From positions 1-64,000 of the forward strand of contig NZ_WBIQ01000001.1 in assembly GCF_009749405.1 (NCBI RefSeq): 64,000 nucleotides of DNA, read 5' to 3'. Shown one piece after another: positions 61,009 to 63,761 of the stretch. Position 1 is the first letter of the stretch; every line of letters begins with the position of its first letter. Source of the DNA: Agromyces lapidis (GTDB lineage: Bacteria > Actinomycetota > Actinomycetes > Actinomycetales > Microbacteriaceae). Made by a program: the position numbers and the translations under genes. The notes beneath the pieces are model-generated. The model made no database searches. It worked only from the letters and a program-made list of their open reading frames with translations, and was not told the origin of the DNA.

Positions 61009-61311
61009 ATGAGCATGACGCTCGACGAGTTGCCCGCAGTCGCCGAATGCTCGGTGGCCGGATGCTCCTACAACGACCATTCGCACTGCCACGCCGCCGC
61101 CGTGACGATCGCCGGTTCGGTCGGCGACGCCGAGTGTGCGACGTTCATCCCGCTGGGCAGCAAGGGCGGCCTCGACAAGGTGATCACCCACGTCGGTGCG
61201 TGTCAGCGCTCCGAGTGCGTGCACAACTCGAAGCTCGAGTGCACCGCGGCCTCTGTGCGGATCGGCGCCGGCACGGACGACGCCGACTGCCTCACGTACG
61301 AAGTCGCCTGA
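61009..61311 (+). CDS. DUF1540 double-repeat metal-binding-type protein
   Basis: This 100-residue protein contains two DUF1540 repeats. The first is AECSVAGCSYNDHSHCHAAA with a later AECATF, and the second is ACQRSECVHNSKLECTAAS with a later ADCLTY. Each repeat gives four cysteines in CxxxC...C...C spacing, suited to zinc or iron. Such proteins are small and cytosolic, with unknown partners. RBS GAGGAGG precedes ATG 61009. A very strong terminator follows, so it is transcribed alone. Confidence 0.88.
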   Translation: MSMTLDELPAVAECSVAGCSYNDHSHCHAAAVTIAGSVGDAECATFIPLGSKGGLDKVITHVGACQRSECVHNSKLECTAASVRIGAGTDDADCLTYEVA

Positions 61312-61423: not shown

Positions 61424-61897
61424 ATGGGCAAGGTCGTCGAGTTCCCGCGAGCACCCCGCGCTGCGAAGCCGCTCTGGCGCAACGAGCTCGGTGAGGTGCT
61501 CCGCGGCGAGCGACTCGCGCAGGAGCGCATCCTGACCGAGGTCGCCGGGGCGGCGGGCGTCTCGCCCCAGTACCTCTCCGAGATCGAGCGCGGTCGCAAG
61601 GAGCCCTCGAGCGAGGTGCTCGGCGCCGTGACCGAGGCGCTCGGGCTCGAGCTCGTCGAGGTCGTGCACCGGGTCGCCGAGTCGCTCGGGGCCCGACGCG
61701 AGCTCGAACGGCGCGAAGCCGAGCGGCGGGAACGCCTCGAGCGCGAGCGGTCGTTCGCGTTCCGCGCCGACGTGCCGGCGAGGCATCCCGCGCTCGGGGT
61801 CGACGGCGTACTCGTGCTCGACCTCGACGCGGCGACGGCCGCGGGCGGCGCGACCGTCGCCGCGCCCCCCGGAGACGTCTATCTGCTCGCCGCGTAG
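61424..61897 (+). CDS. PopR/ClgR-like XRE regulator of clp genes
   Basis: This 157-residue regulator has a helix-turn-helix, LRGERLAQERILTEVAGAAG, VSPQYLSEIERGRKEPSSEV, LGAVTEALGLELVEVVHRVA, closely matching ClgR/PopR (SPxYLSEIERGRKE.SSE). It is encoded convergently with the clpP pair, overlapping the second clpP end by 19 bases. The C-terminus is VAAPPGDVYLLAA; in Streptomyces PopR two terminal alanines are the signal for degradation by ClpP1P2, and this gene keeps the Ala-Ala. The middle is a charged coiled-coil-like stretch (ARRELERREAERRERLERER). It probably activates the clpP pair when main protease capacity falls. That is inference by analogy. Confidence 0.85.
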   Translation: MGKVVEFPRAPRAAKPLWRNELGEVLRGERLAQERILTEVAGAAGVSPQYLSEIERGRKEPSSEVLGAVTEALGLELVEVVHRVAESLGARRELERREAERRERLERERSFAFRADVPARHPALGVDGVLVLDLDAATAAGGATVAAPPGDVYLLAA

Positions 61898-62505
61898 GAG
61901 GTGCCCGCGCCGACCGCGACCTGTGCGGTGAGCACGTGGTCGGCGAGCCCGTACTCGACGGCGGCCGCGGCCGACAGGATGCGGTCGCGATCGGTGTCGC
62001 GTCGCAGCGTCGCCGCGTCGTGCCCGGTGTCGGCGGCGAGCGCCGTCTCGAGCTCGGCCCGCACGCGCACGACCTCGTCGGCGTGGATGATGAGGTCGGG
62101 GATCGAGCCCCGGCCCTGCGTCGAGGGTTGGTGCAGCACGACCCGCCCGTGCGGCAGGATCGCCCGCTGCCCCTTCGCCCCGCCCGCGAGGAGCACCGCG
62201 GCCGGCCCGGCGGCCTGGCCGACGCACGTCGTGGCGACATCCGGCCTGATGTGCTGCATCGTGTCGTAGACCGCGAGCGCCGCCCCGGGCGAGCCGCCGG
62301 GCGAGTTCAGGTAGAGGCTGATCGGCGTCTCGCTCGACTCGGAGGCGAGGTGGAGGAACTGCGCGATGAGCACGTTCGCGACGCCGTCGTCGATCTCGGT
62401 GCCGAGGTAGACGATGCGCTCCGAGAGCAGCCGGCTGTAGACGTCGAGCGAACGCTCGCTGTTGCCCCGCTTCTCGACGACGTAGGGGATGGTGTAGCTG
62501 GTCAT
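61879..62505 (-). CDS. ClpP paralogue lacking the catalytic serine (ClpR-like)
   Basis: This 208-residue ClpP-fold protein has SERIVYLGTEIDDGVANVLI, SLYLNSPGGSPGAALAVYDT and the RAILPHGRVVLHQPST block with the catalytic His125 kept, plus DTDRDRILSAAAAVEYGLAD with the Asp. The serine-containing GQAASM loop is GQAAGPAAVLLAGG, with Gly100 at the nucleophile position (codon GGG). So the subunit cannot cleave peptides by the usual mechanism and may shape or gate a mixed ClpP ring. ATG 62505 overlaps the preceding clpP stop in ATGA, which enforces stoichiometric translation. Confidence 0.9.
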   Translation of the reverse strand: MTSYTIPYVVEKRGNSERSLDVYSRLLSERIVYLGTEIDDGVANVLIAQFLHLASESSETPISLYLNSPGGSPGAALAVYDTMQHIRPDVATTCVGQAAGPAAVLLAGGAKGQRAILPHGRVVLHQPSTQGRGSIPDLIIHADEVVRVRAELETALAADTGHDAATLRRDTDRDRILSAAAAVEYGLADHVLTAQVAVGAGTSYAASR

Positions 62506-63122
62506 GCGGTCGCTCGCAATCCGGTCTGGGGGCGCTCGGCCCGGGGGAACATCTCGTCGAAGCCGCCGGCGATGCGGTCGATGAAGCCGTAGTCGACGGC
62601 CTGCGCGGCGGTGTACCAGCGGTCGCGCAGGGAGTCCTCGGCGATGCGCTCGAGCGGCTGGCCCGTGTTCGCGGCGGTGATGTCGAGCACGGTGTCGCGC
62701 ATGTGGCGCAGGTCGTCGGCCTGCAGCTCGACGTCGACGGCGGTGCCGCCGATGCCCGCCGAGCCCTGGTGCATGAGGATGCGCGCGTGCGGGAGGGCGA
62801 AGCGCTTGCCGGGCGTGCCGGCGCTCAGCAGGAACTGGCCGGCGCTCGCCGCGATTCCGTACGCGATCGTCGACACGTCGTTCGGGATCGAGCGCATCAG
62901 GTCGGCGATGGCGAGCATCGCCGAGACCGAGCCGCCTGGCGAGTTGATCCAGAAGCGGATGTCACGGCGCGGGTCGTCGGCCGCGAGGGTGACCAGCTGC
63001 GCGCAGAGGCGGTTGCCGCCCTGCTGGTCGAGCTCGTCGCCGAGCACGATGATGCGTTCGTGGAAGAGCCGGGCGGTGAGCTCGGCGTCGATCGGCTGGA
63101 TGGCCGGGGTCTGTTCGCTCAT
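62502..63122 (-). CDS. clpP: ClpP protease subunit (active copy)
   Basis: This 206-residue peptidase subunit has ERIIVLGDELDQQGGNRLCA, FWINSPGGSVSAMLAIADLM and the active-site serine 93 in YGIAASAGQFLLSAG. His118 lies in FALPHARILMHQG, and Asp163 lies in IAEDSLRDRWYTAAQAVDYG. It is first in a two-gene operon with the serine-lacking paralogue. A PopR-like palindrome lies 41-55 bases upstream. It is probably an accessory ClpP (Streptomyces ClpP3-like role), with the housekeeping clpP1P2 presumably elsewhere. Together with an AAA+ unfoldase it degrades stress or regulatory proteins. Confidence 0.93.
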   Translation of the reverse strand: MSEQTPAIQPIDAELTARLFHERIIVLGDELDQQGGNRLCAQLVTLAADDPRRDIRFWINSPGGSVSAMLAIADLMRSIPNDVSTIAYGIAASAGQFLLSAGTPGKRFALPHARILMHQGSAGIGGTAVDVELQADDLRHMRDTVLDITAANTGQPLERIAEDSLRDRWYTAAQAVDYGFIDRIAGGFDEMFPRAERPQTGLRATA

Positions 63123-63162
63123 GACCTCAGCCTGCGCGGCGGGGGCGAGGCGCGGGCCCGAT

Positions 63163-63177
63163 GCTGCCGAGGGCAGT
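63163..63177. promoter_or_regulatory. PopR-like operator upstream of the clpP pair
   Basis: GCTGCC-GAG-GGCAGT gives CTGCC and GGCAG arms around three bases. It differs at two positions from TCTGCC-N3-GGCAGA, recalled as the Streptomyces PopR site. It sits 41-55 bases upstream of the clpP start, on the only side from which the operon is transcribed. Confidence 0.6.
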
Positions 63178-63236
63178 GCTGCTGTGGGCGGAACCGCCGC
63201 CGGTCGAGACGGCGCCGGCGCCCCTCCGCGACCGGC

Positions 63237-63761
63237 TCAGCTCGCGAGCGTGCGGACGACCGGCCCCTCGCTGAACTGGCACGAGGTGGCCGAGAGCCGC
63301 TCGTCGGGGTCGAGCTTCGCGAGCACGGCGCCCGCGATGACGTAGAGCTGCTCGAGCTGCTCGGCGGTCAGCGCGTCGAACACGTTGGCGCGCACCGTGC
63401 CGACGTGCCCGGGGGCGGCATCGGCCATGAGCTCGAGCCCGGCCTCGGTGATCGTCGCGTTCGTCGCCCGTCGATCTTCGGGGCACGGGAACCGTCGGAT
63501 CAGCCCGCGCTCCTCGAGTCGGCGGGCGACGTGCGAGAGGCGCGGCAGCGTCGCGTTGGTGCGCGAGGCGAGCTCGGTCATGCGCATCGTGCGATCGGGG
63601 GCGTCCGCGAGGGCCATGAGCGCGACGTACTCGAAATGCGTGAGGCCCGCATCGCGGAGGAGCTGCGCGTCGAGCGCGCCGGGCAGCAGTTCGGCGACGG
63701 CGATGAGGCGCACCCAGGCCGCCGACTCCTCGGGGGAGAGCCAATGCGTTTCGTCTGCCAT
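63237..63761 (-). CDS. MarR-family transcriptional regulator
   Basis: This 174-residue regulator has FEYVALMALADAPDRTMRMT, ELASRTNATLPRLSHVARRL and EERGLIRRFPCPEDRRATNA, the MarR winged helix with the RR..C.EDRR wing. It is divergent from the F420-type reductase across 102 bases containing TTGT-CGAA-ACAA and GTTG..CAAC palindromes, so it likely represses that gene. The ligand is unknown. It lies upstream of the clpP pair on the same strand, separated by 114 bases with the PopR-like site, so separate transcription is expected. Confidence 0.88.
   Translation of the reverse strand: MADETHWLSPEESAAWVRLIAVAELLPGALDAQLLRDAGLTHFEYVALMALADAPDRTMRMTELASRTNATLPRLSHVARRLEERGLIRRFPCPEDRRATNATITEAGLELMADAAPGHVGTVRANVFDALTAEQLEQLYVIAGAVLAKLDPDERLSATSCQFSEGPVVRTLAS

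Follow-up and report, generated by a model that had tools for sequence, protein, structure and literature searches.

An Accessory clpP Pair of Agromyces lapidis with a Probable Pseudoprotease Subunit and Probable PopR-Type Control

Introduction

The closest described relatives of the locus treated here are the ClpP1P2 cores of Streptomyces and Mycobacterium tuberculosis and the Streptomyces clpP3-clpP4 operon with its activator PopR. Published statements are drawn throughout from portions of the cited articles. In M. tuberculosis, ClpP1 and ClpP2 form separate ring faces; ClpP2 is the docking platform, with the N-loop as a second docking element, while ClpP1 keeps one Tyr in its pocket and yet does not dock (PMC4416901). 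In Streptomyces hawaiiensis, the ATPases dock solely via the ClpP2 pocket, and the S131A mutant of ClpP2 retains full activity (PMC9765437). A review gives TCTGCC-3N-GGCGAATCTGCC-3N-GGCAGA, with a 15-bp repeat, as the motif through which PopR activates clpP3, and regards a pair of alanines at the C-terminus of ClgR-type regulators as what probably marks them for ClpP-dependent degradation (PMC9775585). ClpP-like subunits with altered triads have been reported outside the actinobacteria: ClpR of cyanobacteria and plastids lacks the catalytic triad and stands beside an active subunit (PMC4673316), and ClpP1 of the two-ClpP system of Listeria carries Asn in its triad (PMC9765437).

Organization of the Locus

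The accessory pair described here lies on contig NZ_WBIQ01000001.1 of Agromyces lapidis (GCF_009749405.1), of which positions 1 to 64,000 were analysed; this whole stretch is called the window. The features of the locus are the following:

62502–63122, minus strand: first accessory clpP, encoding the catalytic subunit of ClpP1 type (ClpP3-like), 206 aa (from ORF, Pfam and tree)
61879–62505, minus strand: second accessory clpP, ClpP2-type, putative pseudoprotease subunit, ClpP4-like, 208 aa (from ORF, Pfam, tree and fold)
62206–62208, minus strand: GGG codon of Gly100, where the second subunit would have its nucleophile (from ORF and alignment)
61424–61897, plus strand: PopR/ClgR-like regulator of the XRE family, 157 aa, ending in LLAA and oriented convergently to the operon
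61886–61894, plus strand: C-terminal Leu-Ala-Ala codons, a probable ClpP degron by the precedent of PopR and ClgR (PMC9775585)
63164–63176, no strand assigned: exact PopR-type box CTGCC-N3-GGCAG, its start 54 bp ahead of the first clpP ATG
63179–63191, minus strand: second box CCGCC-N3-AGCAG, two mismatches, in 15-bp tandem spacing

The two clpP genes share a 4-base overlap (62502–62505), and the 3′ end of the regulator, whose stop codon is at 61895–61897, extends 19 bp into the second clpP. The overlapping genes and the convergent regulator were found where the initial annotation had placed them. The first clpP matches Pfam CLP_protease with an E value of 1.5e-60 and the regulator matches HTH_3 with 6.2e-11. 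A search of the genome (3.8 Mb, 15 contigs) returned four ClpP genes, the window pair and a pair on another contig. A MarR-family gene (63237–63761) lies just upstream of the operon in the same direction, with the boxes between the two, and a gene for a DUF1540 small protein (61009–61311) adjoins the regulator.

Catalytic Residues and Fold

The triad of the first subunit is Ser93 (62844–62846), His118 (62769–62771) and Asp167 (62622–62624), the Asp being placed by the E. coli triad numbering, which we take to apply here. The initial annotation had named Ser93 and His118 correctly and had chosen Asp163 as the third member; both residues are Asp, and it is Asp167 that aligns with the triad position. 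In the second subunit, Gly100 (GGG) stands in place of the nucleophile Ser, as had been annotated, with His125 and Asp174 kept. The Ser-His-Asp triad that an active ClpP requires is incomplete in this protein, and the fold is retained (Pfam CLP_protease, E = 1e-61). An AlphaFold model from an alignment of 18 sequences gave a confident ClpP fold (mean pLDDT 83.3, pTM 0.77), to which the nearest solved structures are ClpPs with a TM-score by target length of about 0.9. Evidently, the second subunit has a ClpP fold without the full triad, which is one of the traits of ClpR.

Conservation in Agromyces

Sixty Agromyces genomes, that of the window included, were searched. An accessory second subunit was present in 50 of them and the other 10 had only two ClpPs. 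The nucleophile position is Gly in 50/50 of these second subunits, the window's included, while Ser and His are kept in 50/50 of the first-subunit partners. A normal Ser in close relatives, the finding that by the initial annotation would have refuted its reading, was thus not observed, and a sequencing error or strain-private change is rejected by the presence of Gly throughout the genus. The residue preceding the Gly varies (G 38, A 8, V 2, R 1, T 1). Both genes show signs of purifying selection: the median pairwise dN/dS (NG86) is 0.28 for the second gene and 0.35 for the first, and the second protein is the more conserved one in 1122 of 1225 Agromyces pairs, these comparisons being non-independent.

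Accessory Pairs across the Actinomycetes

In the sample of the window's family, an accessory second subunit was judged from the matches to be present in 36 of 249 genomes; 394 genomes of the class were also searched. In total, 180 accessory-pair records from actinomycetes were assembled from the best matches to the dead protein; some species may be represented twice, and the set gives no estimate of prevalence. Six duplicate loci (L058, L060, L061, L084, L192, L193) were set aside before counting, as were L178–L182, atypical stretches that adjoin other loci or match nothing. Another 13 loci (L162, L163, L166, L167, L169–L177) were set aside as housekeeping-type ClpP1P2 or partnerless, eight of them judged by tree and the rest by likeness; the paired ones among them are all Ser-His-Asp, so that with them the number of intact rows would rise. 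Only loci in which a live clpP lies directly upstream were counted. The live partner of every counted dead gene is accordingly no evidence, because the pairs were selected in this way.

The triad is complete in 180/180 first subunits. Among the 180 second subunits, Ser is lost in 126, His is lost with Ser kept in 20, only Asp is changed in seven and the triad is intact in 27. The 130 records other than the first 50 Agromyces loci give 76, 20, 7 and 27 in the same order. When the records were sorted into 63 genus bins, 43 had the loss throughout, 14 were intact throughout, three were mixed and three had only Asp changed; the bins may overlap, as one genus can stand in two, and one bin holds four plasmid records. 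As 27/180 second subunits keep Ser-His-Asp, the loss is tolerated or favoured rather than required.

Ser has given way to Gly, Ala, Trp, Phe or Glu. Gly and Ala occur in the window's family and in others, Trp in one Nocardioides and two genera of another family (f34), Glu in one genus of a further family (f27) and Phe in one genome. Loci of the f27 genus g135, such as L114, L119 and L120, combine Ser to Glu with a change of the triad Asp to His or Asn, a double loss. The eight Streptomyces records of the set (L188, L197, L200–L204, L207) retain Ser and have Gly instead of His in 8/8, unlike the window, where Ser itself is Gly. Three other His changes, to Asp, Ser and Gln, were seen in one genome each. 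The initial annotation had described the locus as being like Streptomyces clpP3/clpP4-popR with a loss of the active site. The likeness stands; the distinction was drawn too narrowly, as the second gene is changed in these eight Streptomyces records too.

Other ClpPs served as controls. Those kept from the genome scan have Ser-His-Asp in 63/63 cases. Among 30 genomes that carry a broken accessory copy, the triad of the best ClpP2 match is intact in 30/30 and that of ClpP1 in 30/30; two of these genomes have a second, weaker ClpP2-like match outside the count. Unlike the second subunit of the window, the housekeeping ClpP2 has an intact triad in 44/44 examined.

Ancestry and Number of Losses

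In a tree with the housekeeping ClpP1 and ClpP2, the first subunit groups with ClpP1 and the second with ClpP2, with an SH-aLRT support of 99 each; it is a quick tree with one long row, and three housekeeping-type pairs fall among its ClpP1 and ClpP2. From these groupings, the accessory pair probably goes back to a duplication of the entire clpP1-clpP2 operon. The window thereby has what is expected of a PopR-controlled clpP3-clpP4 operon, a second clpP pair paralogous to clpP1-clpP2.

A more carefully built tree, with 94 rows and with the columns of the triad masked, requires at least three changes of Ser, four of His and six of Ser or His. A single origin of all Gly, Ala, Trp and Phe copies was not rejected by the AU test (p = 0.317), and the separate losses may therefore number fewer than the best tree suggests. 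Nevertheless, at least three different inactivations are firmly established: that of Ser to Gly/Ala/Trp/Phe, that of Ser to Glu and, in Streptomyces, that of His to Gly. One event behind all losses is rejected, as the tree places the change of Ser to Glu and the losses of His apart.

Accessory clpP pairs were also found on plasmids of Streptomyces, Tsukamurella, Prescottella and Embleya (L188, L189, L190, L191), three of which have a convergent gene annotated as helix-turn-helix, and Ala-type copies from distant families sit among copies of the window's family on the tree. From these two observations, the module seems to move between genera.

A Probable PopR-Type Control Circuit

The CTGCC-N3-GGCAG palindrome that had been annotated ahead of the operon is exact at 63164–63176 and is the sole exact copy in the window (chance mean 0.13). 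Together with the two-mismatch box, it forms a tandem upstream of the operon with the 15-bp spacing of a PopR operon and of the published Streptomyces motif (PMC9775585). Across the set, an exact box lies within 200 bp in 52/180 operons and is absent in 128/180. With at most one mismatch, a box was found in 119/180 upstream regions versus 1/180 coding controls and 5/180 shuffles, and the 15-bp tandem in 95/180 operons versus 0/180 controls. A convergent regulator accompanies 164 of the 180 pairs and was not found in 16 within the DNA fetched; 149 of the 164 end in Ala-Ala and 134 in Leu-Ala-Ala. In four Agromyces loci (L010, L015, L027, L028), the distance between regulator and operon is larger than in the other Agromyces, and an insertion may exist between them.

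The adjacent ClgR-type regulator of the window, with its C-terminal Ala-Ala, is likewise what a PopR operon would have. Taken together, the boxes, the convergent regulator and the Ala-Ala tails indicate by likeness of sequence that the regulator is very probably a PopR. With the clpP1P2 paralogy, the analogy to PopR drawn in the initial annotation is strong. Gene order and gene overlap (the latter in the S. fungicidicus record) are shared with Streptomyces clpP3-clpP4 as well. That the regulator is ClgR itself was rejected, since it scores 72 bits against the ClgR equivalog NF041677, below the curated cut-off of 170 bits. The same genome contains a second ClgR-like gene (G000:C5:684649-684945), which reaches 99.7 bits against this model and is also below the cut-off.

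Further targets were sought genome-wide with the tandem box. The one perfect match, at the window, was discarded as circular because the pattern had been partly derived from the window. With three mismatches, 16 and 15 matches were obtained versus 116 and 129 for the reversed control; as the control exceeds the pattern, the three-mismatch pattern is uninformative on other targets.

Docking Pocket and N-Loop

The two subunits differ in the parts by which ClpP2 docks the ATPase. The docking Tyr is present in 180/180 second subunits, and an N-loop motif, read off these same second-subunit proteins, is found in 178/180 second and 0/180 first subunits. The third pocket position is F, H or Y in 179/180 second subunits and L, A or S in 155/180 first subunits. 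In the window's pair, the pocket residues include Tyr65 of the second subunit and Trp58 of the first. By analogy with the ClpP2-type ring on which ClpP1P2 is reported to dock its ATPases, the dead subunit is, on balance, best read as the docking ring. Against this stands that the pocket of the first subunit is not wholly lost, its second position being aromatic in 165/180 (W 115, Y 46, F 4), although the non-docking ClpP1 of M. tuberculosis likewise has one Tyr there (PMC4416901).

A Proposed Backup Core with One Cutting Ring

The gene content, the loss of catalytic residues, the paralogy to clpP1-clpP2, the signs of purifying selection and the conserved boxes and tail are best explained, and we think it likely, by a PopR-type backup core with one cutting ring and one pseudoprotease ring that docks the ATPase. 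The whole clpP1-clpP2 operon would have been duplicated to give a backup Clp core, in which the ClpP1 paralogue encoded by the first gene would do all the cutting. The ClpP2 paralogue encoded by the second gene would have become a pseudoprotease, its nucleophile lost and its fold, axial N-loop and docking pocket kept. By analogy with the ClpP1P2 of Streptomyces and M. tuberculosis, which has the same two subunit types, the core would consist of one ring of each; the Clp ATPase would dock on the dead ring, and the substrate would reach the live ring by way of it. The convergent activator would bind the tandem CTGCC-N3-GGCAG boxes and, as long as the housekeeping ClpP1P2 works, be destroyed via its Leu-Ala-Ala tail, so that the backup core would be made only if ClpP1P2 fails or is overloaded. 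The dispensability of the Ser of Streptomyces ClpP2 under mutation (PMC9765437) has its counterpart in the lost Ser of the second subunit.

Against this explanation count the 16 pairs in which no convergent regulator was seen and the 128 operons that lack an exact box. One published result weighs against it as well. When ClpPs of S. cattleya were produced one at a time together with ClpX in E. coli BL21, RelB had a shorter half-life with four of the six, two of these four being adjacent by locus tag (PMC4989188). The weight of this depends on whether one of the four is the His to Gly subunit, and the consulted portion of the paper leaves unstated whether the host lacked its own ClpP.

The initial annotation, whose interpretation is supported on the whole, had proposed a mixed ring with a structural subunit. 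By the paralogy to ClpP1P2, two unlike rings are the better reading, with "structural" taken as ATPase-docking. Mixing of dead and live subunits within one ring, which would reduce the active sites per ring, is unlikely in our judgement. It has a precedent in ClpR, which is reported to share a ring with ClpP3 in alternation, each Synechococcus ring being composed of three ClpP3 and four ClpR (PMC4673316), and the accessory genes overlap on one strand, so that joint expression is likely. Nevertheless, the subunits are paralogues of ClpP1 and ClpP2, which form the separate ring faces of M. tuberculosis (PMC4416901), and their differing N-loop motif and pocket fit one docking face and one other. 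On the tree, which carried no ClpR row, the dead subunit groups with actinobacterial ClpP2.

It is quite improbable that the dead subunit acts as a brake, joining housekeeping ClpP1 or ClpP2 and poisoning or redirecting the main Clp core. Such an action is conceivable in view of S. hawaiiensis, where ClpP-ADEP binds ClpP1 and breaks up ClpP1 complexes (PMC12607617). The triad of the live partner in 180/180 and a dN/dS well below 1 speak weakly against the brake, since the pair therefore seems to be kept as a protease. Very improbable is a second subunit that is still a peptidase, by another nucleophile or only in complex. Listeria ClpP1, also with a changed triad, is active only in complex (PMC9765437), and seven of the 180 copies differ solely at Asp; the change in Listeria is, unlike that of the window, at the Asp position only. 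With Gly, Ala, Trp, Phe and Glu all found at the nucleophile position, no common substitute nucleophile is apparent. That the second gene is a decaying duplicate without a role, of which the loss of a catalytic residue would be a plausible first step, is the least probable reading of all and is rejected by its full-length frame, its dN/dS, the confident fold, the invariant Gly and its greater conservation than that of the live partner.

Significance

The operon type is already known, and it is the catalytic loss in the second subunit of the accessory pairs that seems new. A search of titles and beginnings of abstracts, whose reach did not extend to the original PopR papers of 2000 and 2002, found no report that second subunits of accessory pairs from actinobacteria lose catalytic residues, and there is no mention of it in the consulted portions of PMC9765437, PMC12607617, PMC9775585, PMC8182300, PMC3258218, PMC4416901, PMC4673316 and PMC4989188.

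We consider it rather more probable than otherwise that half-dead backup Clp proteases are common in actinomycetes and include the classical Streptomyces ClpP3P4, the ClpP2-type ring having turned several times, by differing residue changes, into a pseudoprotease with ATPase docking as its sole role; the division of labour between the rings would then be evolutionarily hard-wired. If true, this would be an unrecognised and widespread family of bacterial pseudoproteases outside the cyanobacteria, and it would bear on the question of why bacterial Clp cores use two unlike rings. Evolution appears to have repeated the laboratory experiment of the active ClpP2 Ser mutant, in one subunit type only and in many genera. 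The roles of the two rings, cutting for one type and docking for the other, are thereby predicted, and the results suggest that Streptomyces ClpP4 should not be presumed to be a protease. Moreover, in such a natural core with one active ring, the coupling between the number of active sites and ATPase docking could be studied.
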